From SAR324 cluster bacterium (GTDB taxonomy: Bacteria > SAR324 > NAC60-12), in contig JADFZZ010000001.1 of assembly GCA_015232315.1 (NCBI GenBank), positions 272,835 through 336,834 of the forward strand: a DNA stretch of 64,000 bases. Reading direction: 5' to 3'. Both the position numbers and the translations under genes were made by a program. Below the pieces are notes generated by a model. That model saw nothing but the letters and a program-made list of their open reading frames with translations. It did no database searches and had not been told where the DNA came from. Positions 35,805 through 48,232 of this stretch are shown piece by piece. The number at the start of each line of letters is the position of its first letter. Position 1 is the stretch's first letter.

Positions 35805-37085
35805 TCAGACCAGTCTCATGCCAAACTGGGAGGCACTGCCCAATTCATCTTCAATTTCCAGCAGACGGTTGTATTTGGCGGTACGCTCACCACGTGAGGT
35901 AGAGCCTGTTTTAATTTGCCCACCACCCATGGCAACCGCAAAATCTGCGATAAACGTATCTTCTGTTTCACCGCTTCGGTGTGAAATGATATAGCTCCAA
36001 CCAACTTCCCGGCACATCTGGATGGTGGCGATGGTTTCTGAAACAGAGCCAATCTGGTTGACTTTGATCAACACGGAATTGGCGGCTTTTTTCTGAATAC
36101 CTTTTTTGACAAAGTCAGTGTTGGTCACAAACAGGTCATCACCGACGATCTGCACTTTTTCTCCAATAGCGGCCGTCAAACCAGTGAAGCCATCCCAGTC
36201 ATGCTCACTCAAGGGATCTTCAATGGAGATGATTGGGTATTTGGAACACCAGTTTTGATAAAGTTCCATCATTTCTTTGGTGCTCTTTTTGCCCTGACCG
36301 GATTTTTTCAAATTATAGCCACCATCGCTTTTCTCATAAAATTCACTGGAGGCGGCATCCAGGGCGATGGCAATGTCTTTGCCGGGTTTGTAGCCAGCTT
36401 TTTTGATGGCTTCAATGATCAGTTCGCAGGCTTCCTCATTGCTTTTGAGACTTGGAGCGAATCCGCCTTCGTCACCAACTCCGGTGGAATATCCGTTCTT
36501 TTTCAGAATGGCCTTCAAATTATGGAATGTTTCCGCGCCATAGCGTAGCGCTTCACGGAAATTAGGCGCGCCAACCGGCATAACCATGTATTCCTGAAGG
36601 TCCACGCTACTGTCGGCATGTGATCCTCCATTCAGAATATTCATCATAGGCACAGGCAGACGACTGGCTCCGGCACCGCCAAGATAGGCATACAATGGCA
36701 GATTGACTGCTTTTGCGCCAGCACAGGCAACGGCCATGGACACCCCCAGAATCGCGTTTGCGCCCAGGTTTTTCTTGAACGGGGTTCCATCCATATCAAG
36801 CATGACTTTGTCAATCTCGCCTTGATGTGTGACATCCATACCGGTCAATTTGGGACCAATGGTTTTGTTGATATTTTCCACGGCTTTCAAAACACCTTTG
36901 CCCAAATATCTTTTTTTGTCGCCATCCCGTAATTCCAGTGCCTCATTTTCTCCTGTGGAGGCTCCTGAGGGGACCGATGCGGATGCGGAAACACCATCAT
37001 CCAGAGTCACCTTGACCCTGACAGTCGGGTTGCCACGGGAATCCATAATTTCAATGGCTGATACTGTTTGAATTTTTCTGCTCAT
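35805..37085 (-). CDS. eno: enolase
   Basis: 426 residues from the ATG at 37085, which has GGAGG/AGGAG upstream; a longer in-frame extension lacks one. It interconverts 2-phosphoglycerate and phosphoenolpyruvate. Seen: [57 protein letters not shown], the Mg2+ ligands in [22 protein letters not shown] and [10 protein letters not shown], the catalytic Lys in [13 protein letters not shown], and SHRSGETED. Complete and typical. Confidence 0.98.
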
Positions 37086-37238
37086 GTTGCTCCTCCAATT
37101 TTTATGTGAACTAAAAATTAACATGCCTGTTGCTGATTTAACAGCCTCTGCTTCATTCAAAAGTGAGGCTCGATGTATACATTTAGCAAACCCACCCCTC
37201 CAATGGAAAGTGGAAAATGCGAAAATAAATAAATCAAC

Positions 37239-40200
37239 TCACATTTTCCCATATTCATAACGGGTGTGGACCTCGGTCTGGCTGATGCTGGCAGGAGCCA
37301 CATATTGAACAGGGGGTTCGCCTTTTTGTGGAAAAATTCCGCAGGTTTCATAATCCTTGCTGCCATTTATTTCAGGAGGATAAGGCAGACCGCCACCAAA
37401 CGTTTCGAGCAGACCGCGGATCACACTGCGGTTGTTGATGATGTTCCAGACACTGCTGATGCCTTCATTGACTTTAATGATGCCTGAAAAACGTTTGCCG
37501 TCATGGATCAGCCGATCCACTTCAAGCGAACCTGTCAGTGCGTTGCCTACGATTTCAGGATAGTAGGTGCCGGCTCCGCAGAAGGCTTCACGGTGCTCAT
37601 AGTGGTGAACGTAATCTCCATAAAACAGATCGCCGGTGATTGCGATGTTTTCCATAGCACTGAATTCTTCATCCTTTCCCGGTTTGGGCTCGTTGGGATA
37701 CTGATCGGTCAACACCTGGTGATCTTTGACACCCAGACCGCAAACCAGCGCGGGAATTGCCGTCCTCCAGCCGAAATTACGGATTACATTTTTCAGGCTT
37801 TCGCCGGTTTCCACATTCAGAATTTTTCCGAGTCGTTCAGGCCCTACTCCGGTGTAATATCGGCATTGGCCATTACGTTCCCGGCCATCGCCAATCCCTG
37901 TGCCAAAATGAATCAGGCTGGCCATGGCCCGAGCCTCCAGATTGTTGGCAATGTAGGCCAACGAACGGTAAATCGCATGGATGCTGGTGGTGTTGATCAA
38001 CTTGGCTGTCACTTCGCCGGGAAGCAGATTCACAAGCTGGGTCAAGGCGTGAATATCCCGTTGGGCATTCATGATGCGGAGGGTTTTTTCAGTATTTCGC
38101 ACATCGCCCACAATGATGGAAACCGGCCGGGCGTTATCCAGTCCCAGCAGAAATGTTCCCAGACGGGGAGTCGGGTTGTTGCCGTCACGAACCTGACCAT
38201 CGCAGGGATGAAAATATTTTTCCGGAGGTATGGCGGTGGTGATGGTGGTGTCAAATTCCTGCTTGATTCCGCAGTATGTGACGCCGTTGACCAGTAAATT
38301 GATTCGATTCTGTTCATTCAATGGACGTGGCGTCACACCATCAGACTGGTACCCCAGCAGATTGATGGTATCCGCGATGATCGACATATCGCCCACCGTC
38401 TTGGTGTAACTGCCTTTTTGAACCGAAGACCCCACCTGATTGAGTAATACCACCAGATTGTCTACATGATCGACTCCATTCAACACCACCACCATGAGAT
38501 CAATGTTATACAACCGATGAATGAGATCGACCAGATACTGCAACCGTTCCACTTTTCGCACCAAAATCGACACATTGGAAATTTTACTGGAATCCAGTTT
38601 GTTGATCAGGGCGATGACACGATCCACGGACGACGCATTGGCGGAAAGCGTGTTGATGAACACGATCAGGCGACCGAAGGGATCCTGTTGTCCGGTATCA
38701 TTCAGATTCAGATAAGGATTTTCAGGATTGCTCGGAAACACGCCTTTCATCAGATTCACCAACCGTTGAGTGCCGCTGAGTTTTTCCGCGTTCTGATCCA
38801 GACCATTGATCAGTGCCGCCACGGTGACAGCACCGGAATCGGTGTTATGCAATTCATTGATCAGCCGGACCATGTGATTCTGGATGGTCAGTTCTGGTGC
38901 TTCATCAATTTTGTTCAGAATATCCAGCAGTTTTTCCATGCCGGTCGGTTGTGTTTCACGTGATAAATGGTTGAGCAGTACCACAATATCCGACGCACCG
39001 GACGCGCCATTGATGAGATCTGAAAACACCCTGATTTTGCGGACATCACGAATCAGCAGGACCAACCCCGGAAACTGTTTGAAATCCAGATCATTGATCA
39101 GTGTCACCACGTTGTCAGAGCCTTTGCCTGAAATTTCTCTGAGCAGGGTCGTCAATCGGCCGAAATGGTCCTCACGGGAAGTATCATCCGGTGCGTTGTA
39201 TGGAGTTTCTGTGCTTTGCTGTCCAAGACCTTCGAGCAAAAGCATCAATCGGTTGACACCATTCTGTTCAGGATTTTTGCTGTAGCGCAGACCATTGATA
39301 ATTCGAGCGACATTTTCAGGACCACGGGACGTGTTATTGGCGGAAAGATCATTCACCAGCCGGACAATATGGTTGCGAATCGTGAGTGCTTTGTGAGCGT
39401 TTACCTGCGCTAATATATCTTTGAGTTTTTCACAACCGGAGGGCTGACTTTTCTCGTCGAGATGATTGATCAGGGAACTGACTCGACTCGCATCTTCAAT
39501 GCCGTCAATGAATTCTGTCAGTGCTTTCGAATTGCCCAGACTGTTGACCAGATAGCTCAGACATGCCAATTTATCGGAATGGATGTTGTTGAGCAGACCA
39601 TGGACGTTTTGAGATCCCCGCTGAGACAATCCTCCCAGTAAATCCGTGAGTTTCGCAAATTCCTGACTGTTTCGACCTGCTTTCTGTTCATGGCTCATTT
39701 CAGCCAACAGTTTGACCACCTGATTTTCTCCATCCGGCCGGATGCCATTGATGACCGATGCCACATTGCGGGCACCGTTTTCACCACGGGACAACTGATT
39801 GATAAAACGCACCAGTGCCCCTTTGATGGTCAAACCCGGATCATGAGCCACAGTTTCCAGCGTGATCCGAAGTTTGTCACAACCGGAGGGATTTCCCTGA
39901 AGATCCAGATGATTGATGAGTTCCGCCACTGTCGCGGCATCATCCAATCCGTTGATCAGGTCGGTGAGGTAACCGATTTGTTCCATATTGGCGATCAGTC
40001 CTGACAAACATCCCAGTTGTGGCGCTTTGATCACATTCAGCAGAGTGACCACATTCCGGGAACCGGCAGAGTCAATGGTATTGATGAGCGTCAGCAAGCG
40101 GCCAAAACGATCGGATTTTGCAGTCTCGTTCGGTTTTCGGTAGGGATGATCCATATCGTTTTCATGCAGAATTGACATGAGTTTGGCCATTCTCAGCACG

Positions 40201-42626
40201 GCACTCTGGTCCAACGTATTCCCCTGATGGCTCAAACCATTGAGAATCCGGGCAACGTTTTCCGCACCGGAAGAGTCTCTGGAAAGTTCATTGATCAACC
40301 GGACCAGATGGGTTTCCACCGACAAGTCCGGATCATGATCCAGCGCGGCAATCAGGGTCAGTACATTCCTGGTGCCGGGGGCGGGCGTTTTTGAGTCCAG
40401 ATGATTGAGCAGTGTGACCATTTGTTGAGGCGAATTCAAACGGTTGATCAGACCTGTCAGCAGGGAAATTTTGGGAACATCCCGCACCAGCATGACCAAG
40501 GCCGGAATCTGCTCTGATTTTACATCGTTGATCAGGGAACTGATATTGGCCGTGCCATGATCTGACACGGCATTGATTAGGGTGGTCAATCGGCCGAAAT
40601 GGTCGGTGGTTCCAGTATCTTCCGGATGATTGTAGGGGTGTGTCAAATCCTGACGGGACACCCCGGCGAGAATCTGGGTCAGGTTGGCAATACTGCCGGA
40701 ACGGGTATGCAGATCATTGAGCAGATTGGCCACATTTCTTGCGCCCTGACTGCCTGACGAAAGATCGTTCACCAGCCGAACCAAATGTCCGATTGTCAAA
40801 TCCGGATGCTGATCGATCTGATGGATCACCTGTGTGAGTGTATCCACCGCATTGGGTTTGCCACCCAGATCAAGCGCGTTGAGCAGAGTCACCACGTGTT
40901 CCGGTTCACGGATACCATTGACCAGATCGGCGACATTCCGGATCTGATACACACTGCCGATCAACTGGATGAGCGCGGAGATCTGGGCCGGATCGGTCTG
41001 ATTGAGCAACACCACCGTGTTGCGGGTGCCTGAACCTGAAATGGCGTTGATAAATGCGGTCAACCGGCCAAACGCATCGGATTGATGGGTATCGAGGGCG
41101 TTTTTATAGGGATGTTCCGGATCTTGTGTGGACAAGCCTTTGAGCAGAGACACCAGTTGATACAAGCCGCCGGTATGGTTTTCTTTAAATTCCAGCCCAT
41201 TGATGATTTGAGCTACATTGGCCGCACTGGTTCCATGAGACAGATCGTCGATCAGACGGATCAGATGGCTTTGAACAGACAGAATTTCCTCTCTGGAAAT
41301 CTGATTGATGAGTTCCGCCATTTTCAGTGCGCCCGTCGGCGAATTCCGATGGTCCAGATGCTTCAGAATGACCAGCATTTGCTGAACATTGCGTACCTGA
41401 TTGATCAGGATGACCAGATTTTGTGGATCCTCCACTTCATTGATCAGGGTGATCAGCGATGCTAATCCATCCTTTGAGTTTTGAGCATTGGTTTGAATTT
41501 TTTCCAGAATCATCGACAGGTTTTCAATGTTTTCCACATAACCAATGATTCCCGCCAGTTTATCCATGTCCTTCACTTCATTCAACAAACGCATGAGATT
41601 CGCCTGCTTCTGCGGAGTGTCAAACGTTTGATTCAGCAACACAGACAACCGCCCGGGACCCTTCAGACGATTGATCAGCATGGCAAGTCGAACAGTGGCT
41701 GTTTGATCGTTGTTGTCTTTGATTTCCTGTAACACTGTGACCACTGATTTCGTTTGCTCAATATAGTTCAGGACTTCCACAATGGCCTGGGTATTTTCCA
41801 CATGATTCAGCAGGTAAACAATACGATCCAGATAATCTTTTTCTTCTGCCGACAGTTTTCCGGGATCCGCTTTGCCAAGGTTGACATCCAGCATGTCGGT
41901 GATTCGACTGAATTCTGTCACATTATCCACGATTGAAGCAATGGTTTGAAAGGTCTGAATCCGGGCCAGCACATATCCCAGTTTGATCAGATACCGCTGT
42001 TCTTCTGGTGAAATTTCAGCAATGCCGGGAGTTTTTTTATAATTGACCAGATTGACCGCTCGGCGAGGATCATGAATGTCATCAATCAGATGGGCGATGA
42101 TGGCAATATGGTTGAAATCATTCAGCGTACAGGCACTGTACCACTGTTTTTCCGGAATCTGGAACCGGGGTTTTCCCTGTGGGGTTTCCAGTTGGTTGCA
42201 TCCGGATTCCTTGATGGCATACAACAGTGATAAGATTCGGTCGCCGCCGGATTCGAGCGAAAAATCAATCAGCACATTCATGTCCATATCCCTGAGCAGA
42301 TAGGCCAGGTCCAAGGACTCAAGTCCGGGATGCTCGCGATTTTCAGGGCTGTTCATCAGCACATTCAATTCCTGTGGCAACTGCATGGTGAACTGGGCAA
42401 TCAAGGAACGGTCTGAATCGGATAGTTTTTCACCCTTGTAAAAATAATAGTTGACGAGGATCAATCCGAAAACAGATACGGCCGCGGCTATTGCCAGAAA
42501 AACCCTGAATTGCAGCAGATGTTTGAACGACTGCTGCTGTTTCTTCAGACTGAAAGTGATCAATATCAGTCCTGTGACTAGGGCGATCAGGGTTAAAATG
42601 ATTTCAATAATGATTTTTATCTTCAT
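37239..42626 (-). CDS. giant membrane-anchored 'LIN'-repeat protein, unknown family
   Basis: About 1795 residues from the ATG at 42626 (GGGGGC upstream); an ATG four codons earlier is also possible (numbering below uses it). Two membrane segments (about 8-30 and 46-65) are followed by a huge Leu/Ile/Val/Asn-rich helical region. Short sub-repeats of about 20-25 residues end in L-[IV]-N-x-[LIV]. From residue 458 to 1415 these group into six tandem super-units of 149-165 residues, each with HLVRLINDLS, then an ARIINGL block, HPY...DT, FGRLTTLINA, and LLNHLD. Residues 1415-1799 form a Cys-containing C-terminal domain shared with the divergent lipoprotein. The likely topology puts the repeats in the periplasm. 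I recognise no Pfam-type family; the regular helical repeats suggest a solenoid scaffold. Confidence 0.85.
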   Translation of the reverse strand: MKIKIIIEIILTLIALVTGLILITFSLKKQQQSFKHLLQFRVFLAIAAAVSVFGLILVNYYFYKGEKLSDSDRSLIAQFTMQLPQELNVLMNSPENREHPGLESLDLAYLLRDMDMNVLIDFSLESGGDRILSLLYAIKESGCNQLETPQGKPRFQIPEKQWYSACTLNDFNHIAIIAHLIDDIHDPRRAVNLVNYKKTPGIAEISPEEQRYLIKLGYVLARIQTFQTIASIVDNVTEFSRITDMLDVNLGKADPGKLSAEEKDYLDRIVYLLNHVENTQAIVEVLNYIEQTKSVVTVLQEIKDNNDQTATVRLAMLINRLKGPGRLSVLLNQTFDTPQKQANLMRLLNEVKDMDKLAGIIGYVENIENLSMILEKIQTNAQNSKDGLASLITLINEVEDPQNLVILINQVRNVQQMLVILKHLDHRNSPTGALKMAELINQISREEILSVQSHLIRLIDDLSHGTSAANVAQIINGLEFKENHTGGLYQLVSLLKGLSTQDPEHPYKNALDTHQSDAFGRLTAFINAISGSGTRNTVVLLNQTDPAQISALIQLIGSVYQIRNVADLVNGIREPEHVVTLLNALDLGGKPNAVDTLTQVIHQIDQHPDLTIGHLVRLVNDLSSGSQGARNVANLLNDLHTRSGSIANLTQILAGVSRQDLTHPYNHPEDTGTTDHFGRLTTLINAVSDHGTANISSLINDVKSEQIPALVMLVRDVPKISLLTGLINRLNSPQQMVTLLNHLDSKTPAPGTRNVLTLIAALDHDPDLSVETHLVRLINELSRDSSGAENVARILNGLSHQGNTLDQSAVLRMAKLMSILHENDMDHPYRKPNETAKSDRFGRLLTLINTIDSAGSRNVVTLLNVIKAPQLGCLSGLIANMEQIGYLTDLINGLDDAATVAELINHLDLQGNPSGCDKLRITLETVAHDPGLTIKGALVRFINQLSRGENGARNVASVINGIRPDGENQVVKLLAEMSHEQKAGRNSQEFAKLTDLLGGLSQRGSQNVHGLLNNIHSDKLACLSYLVNSLGNSKALTEFIDGIEDASRVSSLINHLDEKSQPSGCEKLKDILAQVNAHKALTIRNHIVRLVNDLSANNTSRGPENVARIINGLRYSKNPEQNGVNRLMLLLEGLGQQSTETPYNAPDDTSREDHFGRLTTLLREISGKGSDNVVTLINDLDFKQFPGLVLLIRDVRKIRVFSDLINGASGASDIVVLLNHLSRETQPTGMEKLLDILNKIDEAPELTIQNHMVRLINELHNTDSGAVTVAALINGLDQNAEKLSGTQRLVNLMKGVFPSNPENPYLNLNDTGQQDPFGRLIVFINTLSANASSVDRVIALINKLDSSKISNVSILVRKVERLQYLVDLIHRLYNIDLMVVVLNGVDHVDNLVVLLNQVGSSVQKGSYTKTVGDMSIIADTINLLGYQSDGVTPRPLNEQNRINLLVNGVTYCGIKQEFDTTITTAIPPEKYFHPCDGQVRDGNNPTPRLGTFLLGLDNARPVSIIVGDVRNTEKTLRIMNAQRDIHALTQLVNLLPGEVTAKLINTTSIHAIYRSLAYIANNLEARAMASLIHFGTGIGDGRERNGQCRYYTGVGPERLGKILNVETGESLKNVIRNFGWRTAIPALVCGLGVKDHQVLTDQYPNEPKPGKDEEFSAMENIAITGDLFYGDYVHHYEHREAFCGAGTYYPEIVGNALTGSLEVDRLIHDGKRFSGIIKVNEGISSVWNIINNRSVIRGLLETFGGGLPYPPEINGSKDYETCGIFPQKGEPPVQYVAPASISQTEVHTRYEYGKM
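38441..41267 (-). repeat. six in-frame super-repeats of about 160 codons
   Basis: Taking the first HLIRLIDDLS-type block as the unit start, the copies begin at residues 458, 618, 777, 941, 1090 and 1255. The FGRLTT block falls at 523, 681, 845, 994 (degenerate, FAKLTD), 1159 and 1321. Spacings are 149-165 residues. The copies are clearly related in protein but well diverged, so they are old duplications rather than recent slippage. Confidence 0.8.
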
Positions 42627-42935
42627 GGTTGCCCCCATTGACTTCGAGAATGATCAATCAAAATCCTGTTAAGATCGGTACACTTGTGCTGATAAGTGTT
42701 TTACACAAAAACGATTATCGTCAAATTCGATGTCGTAAAATGTCCCGATGACATAATCCTTCAGGAAGATCAAGGTCTCTTCATTGAAAGACAATTTACA
42801 CAACATCCCGGACTGTTAGCGACATGACCGCTTCCTATTTTTAAATTATTGGTACAACTGTACTAACAGTTATTTAATTGCTGTCAAAACTCTCATTAAA
42901 CAAAACAGGTTTCAACTACAGACCAAGGAGGCAAT
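42627..42935. promoter_or_regulatory. shared divergent control region of the two repeat-protein genes
   Basis: This 309-base gap separates the starts of the two giant paralogues, so both promoters must lie here or nearby. Visible elements are AAGGAGG (42925-42931) four bases before the lipoprotein ATG, and inverted repeats ACACTT/AAGTGT (42680-42699) and AACTGT/ACAGTT (42856-42871). No clear -35/-10 pair stands out. Confidence 0.45.
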
Positions 42936-45900
42936 ATGCGGAAATGGGGGATCACCACCATCTGGTTCATCGTCATGATCATCAGTCTTGTTGGCTGCCA
43001 AAAACGGCCGGAACGTACCTTCAAGGTTTCAACCAGTTATTATGACCACAAGGAACAGGAAAGTCATCAGACTGATACTGATATGGACGCGTTGCTCCAG
43101 GGGATCGGTCAGTACAAGTTTGACGCGCTGGTAGCCGGATTGGGGGAAGCCAATCTGCAACGAATGGTGTATGAAGCGGGACACAGCAATATTATTGATT
43201 TGATCAATCAGATTGGTGATCCGCAGAAACTGGTATCATTGATGTCCGGTGACAATGCGTTGAGCGTTACTGAAGTGCTGACACTGCTGAACGCTACCGA
43301 TGAAATGATCCGCGTGGAAAATCCGCCATCTCAGGATACCATCGGCAAAATCGCAAATGTCATCAATAATGTGCATGACATGAACTCCCTCAAAGACATT
43401 GTGCATGGAATGTTGCCGTATCAGGACCTGACCGGAATTGAACGTCTGAGTCTGGTGATCGCACTGGTTGATGAACAAGTGAACACCATGCCGAACCTGT
43501 TGAATGACGTCGCAGGCACCTCCGCAGGAAAAGCCAAACTGCTTAGAATTTTGAATGAAGTGGAAGAACTGAAAAAACTCACCACTTTCATCAACAACCT
43601 GCTTGCACTGAGCAATGCCACCAACCTGATCAATTCAGTAGACTCAGCCGGAATGGAGGCTTTGATCACTACGGTTCGATTGACCGCAAATTCAGAGATG
43701 ATCGCCACCCTGGTTAATTTGCTGGATGTGCAGGGTGTGGTCAGCAATGACGAGGATTTTGAAGGAACCGCCAGCCAGACCTGGGCTGTCTCATCAACTG
43801 GTGGGCACATGTGGGTTATCGACAATCAGCAGGCCAGCGGCGGACAGAACAGCGCAGGCACACCGGAAGGCATGGCACACAATGAAGTGCTGAGTGCCGA
43901 GATGTTCAGTCACATCATTACCGCTGGCACTATGAATTTTCATTACAAAGTCAGCACGGAGTCTGGTCATGACTATCTGAAATTTTATATTGATGATGTG
44001 CTTCAGGGAAAAATTTCCGGCGAAACAGGCTGGAGTCAATCACCAGACTATTATGTGGAAGCAGGTGTTCATCGTTTTCGCTGGGAATATGAAAAAGACG
44101 CCTCTGGAAGCGCAGGACAGGACCGAATATGGCTGGACAACATTGTTCTGCCCGGAGACAAGGGAACACTGCGTACTCCCTACGAAAAAGTCGCGATTTT
44201 GCTGAATCAGCTTAAACCACAGATTCCTGACGCGATACCCCGGATTATTAATGGTCTTACACCAGCCGGAATGGTCACACTCACCCGTTTGCTCAATGGC
44301 ATTGAATATCCTCAGGACATTCAGGCGGAACCCCGTTTGGTCAGCATTGTCAATGGCATTCAGGCCATTCCCACCATCATTGAACTGCTGAACGGCATCA
44401 ATGACAATGGTGCGGTTCAACTGCTGAGTCTGGCGAACTACATTGACAACACCACCGGGATTGTTGACTTGATCAATGGACTGGCGGCTCAGGGAAGCGG
44501 GCGCAAGGCCTATGATCTGATCAACGCCGTGAATTCAACCGGTGTGTTTCAATTTGTCCGTGTGCTGGATGTGGTGGAACCCGCCGACATTGTGACCATC
44601 GCTGATGGCATTTTTCAAACGTCTCATCTGGCAGAAATTCTGAACAACCTCTATCTCAATGGACAGAAAATCTCTCAGGAAAATCAAACCAGCGGTTATA
44701 CCGGTGGACACAAAGTGACGGATGCCATTATGGGGATTAAAGCTGACGCAAATCTTTCCATTGGTTACCATCTGGTCCGACTCATCAACGATATCGCGGT
44801 CAGCGGAACTCATGGAGCAAAAAACGTGGCGGATATTATCAACGGGATGGAACCTCCCACCACCGCATCACCGGAATATGGCATCACCAAGATGGTCAAG
44901 ATACTGTCCGGGATGTCAGCACACGATGAAACGTATCTTTATAAAAATCCGACGGATTCGGGGTATTCAGACAAGTTTGGCCGATTGACCACCTTGATCA
45001 ACAGCATCTCTGAATCTGGAGCCAGTAGCGTTGTCAAAATCATTAATGGAATGGAGGTTGCTCATTTGACGGCATTGACCCAGCTTGTGTCCGATATCAG
45101 CCAGATCCGCCAGATTTCGGAACTGATCAATCAGGTCGATGACGCGGAAAATATCGCCGTGATTTTCAATAATCTGGATCAACAGATCGATCCAAACGGT
45201 GTCACAAAACTGAAAGATGTGATCCATCTGGTCGATGGTAACACGCAACTGGAGATCCAGCATCTGGCCCGCTTGATCAATGACCTGGCCGCACAAGGTG
45301 GAAACAATGGAGCGAGCAATGTGGCTCGCATCATCAATGGATTGACACCTGTCAGTGTCTCTACACAGGAAACCGGCATTATCCGGGTTGTGTTGATCAT
45401 GCAACACTTATACGCCCAGGATTCAGGGAACATTTATACCAGTCCGGATCAAACTGGCACCAGCGATCAGTTTGGCCGCCTGACAACATTAATAAACGCT
45501 ATCTCCGCGAATGGAACCGATAATGTGGTGATTCTGCTGAATAATCTTTCCAACCAGAAAATTCAGGATCTGGGCTATTTGCTGACGCACACAGGCCGCA
45601 TTCGCTATGTTTCTGATCTGGTGAACCGCATGATCAATGTCCAGTTGCTGACCGTGATTCTGAATGGAGTGAACAGCATTGGTTCGTTGACCCAGATTGT
45701 GAATGATATTGGCGGCTCCACCATTTCTGGAAGTGTGGTCAACGCCAAAGCAGTGGGTGATATGACCATTCTGGCGGATACCATCAATCTGCTGGGATAT
45801 CAGGCCGATCGGGTCACACCTCGATCCCCCACAGAACAGCAACGGATCAACACCTTGATCAACGGCATCAATTCCTGCGGCGTCGGGCCGGCCAATAGCA

Positions 45901-46920: not shown

Positions 46921-47056
46921 AGGTGGTCATGATTCGGCAAACACTGAATCTATTCAATGGAAAATTCAACCGAACTCCTCCATTTTTCTCTTGTGGAATC
47001 AATGGGAATTCTCTATTCCTGACCAAATTAAAGTAACAATTTATTTTGGGTTGAGC

Positions 47057-48232
47057 ATGTTCCTGTCCAGAGATCTGACATCTGTTTTTCAGCAAAGCCG
47101 AAAGATGTTTCCCGCTGTTTTGATTACCGGACCTCGTCAGTCTGGCAAAACGACTTTTTTAAAAGAAGAAACAGCGGCAACCTATTGCAGTTTTGATGAT
47201 CCCTTGAGTCGCGATTTCGCAAAGCAGGATCCCCATGCTTTTCTGGATCAGTTTCAGGGAAAACCGGTAATTCTGGATGAAATTCAGTATTCTCCTTCTA
47301 TTTTGCCGTATCTGAAAATGCGGATTGACCAGGATCGAACTCCGGGCCAGTGGTTGATGACCGGCTCTCAGCAATTTCATCTGATGAGCAATATCTCGGA
47401 ATCCTTGGCCGGACGGGTGGCCATTCTGGAATTGCCGCCATTCAGTCTTCATGAAGTGAAGGAACAAAAAATTTCCCTCTCAAAATTATTGTGGAACGGA
47501 TTTTATCCGGAGCTTGTCTGTTTTCCGGAAAAACGTGAACTCTGGGTAAAATCCTACATCCAGACCTATCTGGAACGAGATGTCCGCCAAATAGAGGAAA
47601 TCCGGAATTTTCGTGGATTTGAACTATTTGTTCAACTCTGTGCGGCGCATCACTCTCAGGAATTCCATCCAGCGACGCTGGCCAGTCAGTGTGGTGTTTC
47701 ACAACCGACGATCAAATCATGGAGCAAGGTTCTGGAAATGAGCTATCTGGCTTTGCTACTGCAACCCTATTTCAATAATTTTGGAAAGCGAATCATCAAG
47801 GCGCCCAAATTCTATTTCAGTGATCCCGCTCTCGTTGCCTGGATGACACGTCAACCCTCTCAAGACGCACTTCTAGTGGGGAATATGGGCGGAGCTTTAT
47901 TTGAAGGGATGATCATTTCAGAAGCGTGGAAGATTTTTTTGAGTCTTGGCAAAAAACCATCCCTTTACTTTTGGCGTTCTCAAGGAGGCCTGGAAGTGGA
48001 TTTGCTGATTCACGCACAAGGAACACTCTATCCGGTTGAAATCAAATTGACTTCCACCCCCACTGCCAATCATGTGATCCCTCTGAACCAATTCAAGCAG
48101 ATCGCAGAGGAAATATCCTCGCCACAAGGTATTCTGGTGTGCAATGTAGACCGGGAACAGGCTTTGCCGGGAAACAACAAGGCATTGCCCTGGTGGATGT
48201 TCTCTGAATGGATGAACGAATTGCTCTCGTAG
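47057..48232 (+). CDS. DUF4143 AAA-type ATPase
   Basis: 391 residues from the ATG at 47057 (start uncertain; a longer frame opens at 46991). The N-terminal AAA_14-type ATPase has Walker A GPRQSGKTT and Walker B VILDEIQ, then MTGSQQF (sensor-like) and SLAGRVAILELPPFS. The C-terminal DUF4143 domain contains a helix-turn-helix-like stretch (CGVSQPTIKSW) and a restriction-endonuclease-like core (FWRSQGGLEVDLLI...YPVEIKL). This family is common, mobile and of unknown function; some members are thought to act in toxin-antitoxin-like or DNA processes. It follows the repeat lipoprotein by 182 bases. Confidence 0.88.
   Translation: MFLSRDLTSVFQQSRKMFPAVLITGPRQSGKTTFLKEETAATYCSFDDPLSRDFAKQDPHAFLDQFQGKPVILDEIQYSPSILPYLKMRIDQDRTPGQWLMTGSQQFHLMSNISESLAGRVAILELPPFSLHEVKEQKISLSKLLWNGFYPELVCFPEKRELWVKSYIQTYLERDVRQIEEIRNFRGFELFVQLCAAHHSQEFHPATLASQCGVSQPTIKSWSKVLEMSYLALLLQPYFNNFGKRIIKAPKFYFSDPALVAWMTRQPSQDALLVGNMGGALFEGMIISEAWKIFLSLGKKPSLYFWRSQGGLEVDLLIHAQGTLYPVEIKLTSTPTANHVIPLNQFKQIAEEISSPQGILVCNVDREQALPGNNKALPWWMFSEWMNELLS

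Follow-up and report, generated by a model that had tools for sequence, protein, structure and literature searches.

The locus under study raises the question of what kind of protein a bacterium makes from a block of about 160 residues that recurs six times, and how such a protein would be built, anchored, and used. The gene lies on the minus strand at positions 37239..42638 of the window, i.e., the whole stretch of 64,000 nt from a SAR324 cluster bacterium that was analyzed. It comprises 1799 codons, and its product is called P1799 here; the protein probably has 1795 residues, the length given by the first-pass annotation, which is obtained when translation starts at the second ATG. The genome encodes four paralogues, namely P1799, the product of the divergent neighboring gene (P1312), an ORF of 764 aa on contig C11, and an ORF of 850 aa on contig C39. 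The answer that we prefer, and that we believe about as readily as we doubt it, is that the bacterium, which would have two membranes, exports four paralogous alpha-solenoid scaffolds and that P1799, the largest of them, is anchored in the inner membrane.

Six super-units in the repeat protein

The block HLVRLINDLS starts at residues 458, 618, 777, 941, 1090, and 1255 of P1799. The resulting spacings of 160, 159, 164, 149, and 165 residues fall exactly within the range of 149–165 that had been claimed for six super-repeats. The self dot plot was generated with 30-residue windows (BLOSUM62, score of at least 40, offsets up to 699) and compared with 40 full shuffles and 40 shuffles within blocks of 20 residues. 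In P1799, 1396 windows passed, versus means of 1.0 in the full shuffles and 1.3 in the block shuffles (maximum 10). The best offsets were 478, 164, 314, 636, 322, 158, and 149, and the lines at about 160, 320, 478, and 636, which never appeared in shuffles, are the off-diagonals expected for an array of this kind.

Super-units 1 (residues 458–617; 40788..41267), 2 (residues 618–776; 40311..40787), 3 (residues 777–940; 39819..40310), and 5 (residues 1090–1254; 38877..39371) were delimited by the motif block and the unit alignment, and super-units 4 (residues 941–1089; 39372..39818) and 6 (residues 1255–1414; 38397..38876) by the unit alignment; all of them lie on the minus strand. The six units share 26–42% pairwise identity. 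The ordered recurrence of five sequence blocks, which had been described for all six units, was recovered for the array, but not for every unit. A deletion has removed HPY...DT from unit 4, and FGRLTTLINA is degenerate there (FAKLTDLLGG). The strict HPY is present in three of the six units and the looser form PY...[DE]T in five. Unit 6 has a shortened end and lacks the PSG loop; it reaches about residue 1414 (window position 38397), slightly past the end that had been assigned to the array. The HPY...DT and PSG loops are conserved and keep their places in most super-units, and they may mark a candidate binding site that is repeated along the protein.

A 13-residue helix-like unit as the smallest repeat

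The super-units are preceded by a plain array of 13-residue helices (residues 269–457; 41268..41834, minus strand), in which PSSM units follow one another at 13-residue steps. The small repeat is one helix of 13 residues and not the sub-repeat of 20–25 residues that had been proposed, and the longer steps consist of a helix and a loop. The consensus G-x-x-[KR]-L-[VA]-x-L-[ILV]-N-x-[LVI]-x corresponds to a helix of about nine residues plus a turn, with hydrophobic residues at positions 5, 8, 9, and 12 and Asn at position 10. An iterated 13-column matrix detected 78 helix-like units in P1799, 51 in P1312, and 28 and 41 in the two other paralogues, compared with means of 4.9, 3.2, 1.6, and 2.8 in shuffled versions; since the four proteins themselves had served to train the matrix, these counts are descriptive and do not amount to a test. 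The commonest spacings of the detected units were 13 (19 times), 19 (11 times), 15 (10 times), and 17 (seven times). The autocorrelation of hydropathy is a measure that is independent of the matrix. At a lag of 13, it was 0.138 in P1799 (maximum of 500 shuffles 0.075) and 0.149 in the 850-aa paralogue (shuffle maximum 0.131), and it stayed below the shuffle maximum in the other two paralogues (0.080 versus 0.089 and 0.108 versus 0.111).

Each super-unit consists of nine such helices. Inside the super-unit, positions 2, 5, and 8 are alike (mean scores 25.7, 19.5, and 19.3; cyclic test, p 0.0076), and therefore the super-unit looks like three triplets of helices, an ARM-like count. Positions 3, 6, and 9 are barely alike, and most of the three-helix signal comes from positions 2, 5, and 8. 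In the paralogues and in those parts of P1799 that lie outside the super-units, helices were more alike at lags 3 and 6 than at other lags (lag 3 compared with permuted order, p 0.004–0.022 for six parameter settings). When the proteins were viewed individually, lags 3 and 6 stood out in P1799 and P1312, lags 2, 3, 6, 7, and 8 were raised in the 850-aa paralogue, and no lag, including lag 3, was raised in the 764-aa paralogue. A two-helix period was not significant at any of six settings (difference of about 0.9 score units, p 0.14–0.16). Taken together, the regularity, which had been described as two-level, seems to have three levels: the 13-residue helix, the group of three, and the super-unit of nine. 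Each unit is probably a single short helix, and three of them would make up a turn, in the manner of ARM-like folds, so that the super-unit would comprise three turns.

Four paralogues with shared and unshared regions

The divergent gene for P1312 (42936..46874, plus strand; 1312 aa) is preceded by the ribosome-binding site AAGGAGG. It contains two further super-units that the first-pass annotation had overlooked, B1 (44769..45260) and B2 (45261..45746), both on the plus strand and defined by the unit alignment. P1799 and P1312 have in common the last super-unit, including two identical deletions, and the entire C-terminal region (P1799 residues 1415–1799; 37242..38396, minus strand), with 39% identity over 545 residues including super-unit 6. 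The C-terminal region of P1799 includes a GVGPxRLG module (about 37719–37871, minus strand; identified by alignment), and the four paralogues can all be aligned over a short G-[VL]-G-x module, in which only six columns are invariant. When a tree was built from the eight units, unit 6 plus B2 was the sole grouping with some support (88/93). Because the last super-unit, its deletions, and the C-terminal region are common to both proteins, the super-units seem to be older than the duplication that gave rise to P1799 and P1312, and inner units would have been gained or lost afterwards.

The nucleotide sequences confirmed that the units are diverged. Identities between super-units are 42–54% overall and 26–40% at third codon positions, and dS is above 1.3 or not computable for all 28 pairs. 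The third positions are near saturation, and the duplications are therefore old. In 28 of 28 pairs, codon positions 1 and 2 are better kept than position 3, which demonstrates selection on the protein.

Outside the repeats, the N-terminal regions are of two kinds. P1799 residues 70–243 (41910..42431, minus strand), with Cys147 and Cys170, form a type I N-terminus that is shared with the 764-aa paralogue (28% identity over residues 45–243, E 7.7e-20), in which the cysteines are found at 118 and 141. P1312 and the 850-aa paralogue have another N-terminal region in common. The C-terminal parts of the 764-aa and 850-aa paralogues align over about 550 residues (E about 1e-25). In P1312, the helix array is interrupted by an inserted non-repeat domain (residues 270–410; 43743..44165, plus strand), relatives of which form parts of two lipoprotein-like ORFs in the distant genomes G046 and G032 (31–32% identity, E about 6e-11). 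There is also a weak hint (E 0.041) that this domain resembles the end portion of VesC, a secreted protease. A 20-bit match of P1312 to a pseudouridine glycosidase in the PDB was set aside, since it covers a helical stretch of low complexity and Pfam gives no support.

Several observations were made on the surroundings of these genes. An enolase gene, named by eye, is located at window positions 35805–37160, about 80–150 bases downstream of the P1799 gene and in the same orientation; the TTG listed as its start probably lies too far upstream. A DUF4143/AAA_14 ATPase gene (46991–48232) lies directly downstream of the P1312 gene, also on the same strand. A combined scan for promoters and terminators yielded fewer promoter-like sites than shuffled sequences (8 versus 14.1). 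On contig C11 (L004:7780-12270), three overlapping ORFs on one strand, of 387 aa and 351 aa followed by the 764-aa paralogue, form an apparent operon. The 387-aa and 351-aa ORFs have signal-peptide-like starts and no match in 57 other genomes, and their strand alternation did not bear out the idea of outer-membrane barrels (36 versus a shuffle mean of 39, and 68 versus a mean of 51 and a maximum of 93). On contig C39, the 850-aa paralogue is directly followed by a gene for an NHL-repeat protein (L021:2727-5897) that begins with a lipobox-like stretch and contains an HExxH motif (HEASH). On the same contig, an ORF at L021:862-1923, located between two similar small lipoprotein-like ORFs (358–831 and 1957–2448), combines an RHS-core-like stretch with a unique tail behind it.

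Distribution among genomes

Searches of Pfam, NCBIfam, PHROGs, and PDB sequences gave no family match for the repeat proteins. Viral contigs, phages, and plasmids contained nothing of use, and the same was true for peptide-pattern scans of genome contigs, which reach close relatives only. The single-sequence search found the family in the source genome alone (1 of 58 genomes), as did the super-unit profile (1 of 52 genomes in the phylum and 1 of 383 when the set was widened) and the C-terminal profile (1 of 383). A helix profile of 39 residues matched 2 of 383 genomes. All 18 matches in the source genome fall within the four paralogues; the match in the second genome, a frame of 976 aa, was treated as chance, as the portion that was read is UvrA-like, judged by eye. 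In the searches of 383 genomes, the best candidates per genome were scored (up to 19 for the helix, 9 for the super-unit, and 3 for the C-terminal profile), and the results name 21–22 genomes individually and give the remainder as a tally. Among these best candidates, no relative was found in the 382 other genomes. The best reading is that the family is lineage-specific in what was searched. It may be genus-wide, because the source genome is the sole member of its genus among the genomes listed in the 58-genome search.

Predicted membrane anchoring and location

Residues 1–70 of P1799 (42429..42638, minus strand) were predicted by a hydropathy scan to form a membrane anchor, in which a positively charged loop connects two hydrophobic segments. 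Hydrophobic windows of 19 residues start at residues 1–15 and 40–49, with maxima of 2.93 and 2.48. According to the positive-inside rule, a positively charged loop stays on the cytoplasmic side, and in the predicted orientation both ends of the hydrophobic pair would be located in the periplasm. P1799 has no lipobox: its first cysteine is residue 147, and the two hydrophobic segments are found instead. The three other paralogues have signal-peptide-like starts that end in lipobox-like motifs, i.e., LVGC in P1312 (residues 18–21), VSGC in the 764-aa paralogue, and LTNC in the 850-aa paralogue. Outside the lipobox, the four proteins contain 12, 8, 10, and 2 cysteines, an even number in every case. 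Two of the super-units of P1799 carry a cysteine pair, 43 residues apart and at equivalent places, namely units 3 (Cys877/Cys920) and 4 (Cys1026/Cys1069); units 1, 2, 5, and 6 have none. The bulk of the proteins is predicted to be extracytoplasmic, where the putative cysteine pairs could form disulfides. We infer the presence of an outer membrane because the window contains a lipid A acyltransferase gene.

Lipobox-like starts in three of four paralogues would also be expected if the family were surface adhesins or receptor-binding lipoproteins, with solenoids that face outward and bind glycans or other cells. The inserted domain of P1312, which recurs in two lipoprotein-like ORFs, and the restriction to one lineage in what was searched, as expected of surface proteins, point in the same direction. 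However, the membrane-like segments of P1799, which come without a lipobox, are better suited to the inner membrane than to the surface, and searches of domain databases found no known adhesin domain. We regard this explanation as doubtful.

Predicted structure and fold class

Super-units 2 and 3 were modeled with AlphaFold, for which the units of the window supplied the alignment. The model is all helix, with 18 helices, nine per unit, at low confidence (mean pLDDT 57.5). Four other models reached pLDDT values of 41.7–47.9, and that of the C-terminal region (pLDDT 31.9) was useless. In the shifted super-unit alignment, units 1 and 6 align to the second half only. The top Foldseek matches to the model of units 2 and 3 were weak and mostly alpha-solenoids (Pumilio, transportin, importin, and ARM/APC/beta-catenin); none had an E value of 0.001 or better, and the TM-scores shown were at most 0.32. 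The best VIA match was the HEAT protein symplekin (Z 7.2, 235 residues at 6.7 Å), which is below the Z that helical repeats reach by chance according to VIA. The resemblance of the model to alpha-solenoids is weak and generic. A leucine-rich repeat (a beta-alpha unit of 20–30 residues) was rejected on the basis of the 13-residue period and the all-helical, though low-confidence, model, and a beta-solenoid on the basis of the period and the helical pattern.

In summary, alpha-solenoid is the likely fold class. The earlier description as an unusual HEAT/ARM-type solenoid was borne out as to the helical array and its higher-order repeat, but not as to the named families. With hmmscan against Pfam-A at E values up to 1, neither the Arm model nor the HEAT models matched either window protein or any of the eight super-units. 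The 850-aa paralogue gave only ARM_CPL3 (E 0.15, 12.4 bits versus a cut-off of 26); the FliG model gave 12.8 bits versus a cut-off of 550, and MgtE_N had no Pfam match at E values up to 1. As the profiles have no match and the two-helix period was not found, the P1799 family is not classifiable as ARM or HEAT. The proteins could be true HEAT or ARM members that have diverged past sequence recognition, in which case they would simply extend a known family. The best Foldseek and VIA matches include HEAT/ARM proteins, and three helices per group would fit the ARM repeat, which a published description defines as three helices in about 42 residues (PMC11514114). Against this stand the missing Pfam matches, structural scores at the level expected of unrelated helical repeats, and a unit of 13 residues per helix, and we consider such membership unlikely.

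Discussion

The preferred reading is an inner-membrane-anchored, extracytoplasmic alpha-solenoid. In the middle of the P1799 chain, a block of nine 13-residue helix-like units became fixed and was copied six times, and P1312 contains this block twice. P1799 would be a long, curved, and largely rigid scaffold whose N-terminus sits in the inner membrane, whereas lipid anchors would hold its sisters. For the ligand and the task of P1799, we infer that the repeat surface and the C-terminal module might be presented to partners in the periplasm or the outer membrane, e.g., the lipoprotein encoded next door.

A more specific version is that the proteins form a helical ruler or bridge across the envelope, in which the inner-membrane P1799 meets the outer-membrane P1312 via the common C-terminal region and last super-unit. 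In an ARM solenoid, each turn adds about 1 nm. P1799 would have about 26 turns of three helices and would measure roughly 25 nm, close to the width of the periplasm. We think that such a bridge is improbable; if it were true, duplication of the nine-helix block would be how this lineage set the span, and the family would match known periplasm-spanning bridges with an all-helical design. It is likewise improbable that the proteins are not solenoids at all and that short helices form bundles or coat lipid in an apolipoprotein-like manner, the repeats being merely amphipathic helix units. This would agree with the low AlphaFold confidence and the short, hydrophobic, leucine-rich units, but the hydrophobics at positions 5, 8, 9, and 12, the Asn at 10, and the fixed loops are more specific than an amphipathic coat requires, and the loops of the super-units are conserved.

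Returning to the extracytoplasmic scaffold, this looks like an alpha-solenoid family that was invented inside one bacterial lineage and in which the steps of building are still legible: the 13-residue helix, the triplets, the fixed nine-helix block, and the six copies of the block. Such a record is useful for the study of repeat-protein origins and for design.

Four known systems invite comparison. Outer-membrane lipoproteins with repeat domains resemble the family in the lipobox-like starts of three of the four paralogues, the predicted extracytoplasmic location, and the lineage-specific spread of paralogues. In contrast to them, the family matches no known lipoprotein family, and P1799, its largest member, has lost or never had a lipobox. 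The HEAT proteins, symplekin and others, belong to the alpha-solenoid class, and symplekin was the best VIA match. HEAT is a two-helix (A/B) repeat, however, and this period was tested and not found in the P1799 family. In the MgtE N-domain and FliG, many short helices, each about a dozen residues long, build a right-handed superhelix. The nine short helices per unit in the low-confidence model of P1799 may be comparable, but P1799 has no MgtE_N match in Pfam, is much longer, and is predicted to be non-cytoplasmic. ARM repeats, including the bacterial FliG ARM modules, are helical solenoids with three helices per repeat, in which a short H1 lies across the antiparallel H2 and H3. This number is comparable to the probable three-helix period here, and the weak structural matches of the model include importin and beta-catenin. 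P1799 differs from them by having no sequence match, uniform 13-residue helices, nine-helix blocks that were duplicated whole, and a predicted extracytoplasmic location. Should the family act as a bridge or scaffold in the envelope, this would represent a helical solution to a job that is known from other folds.
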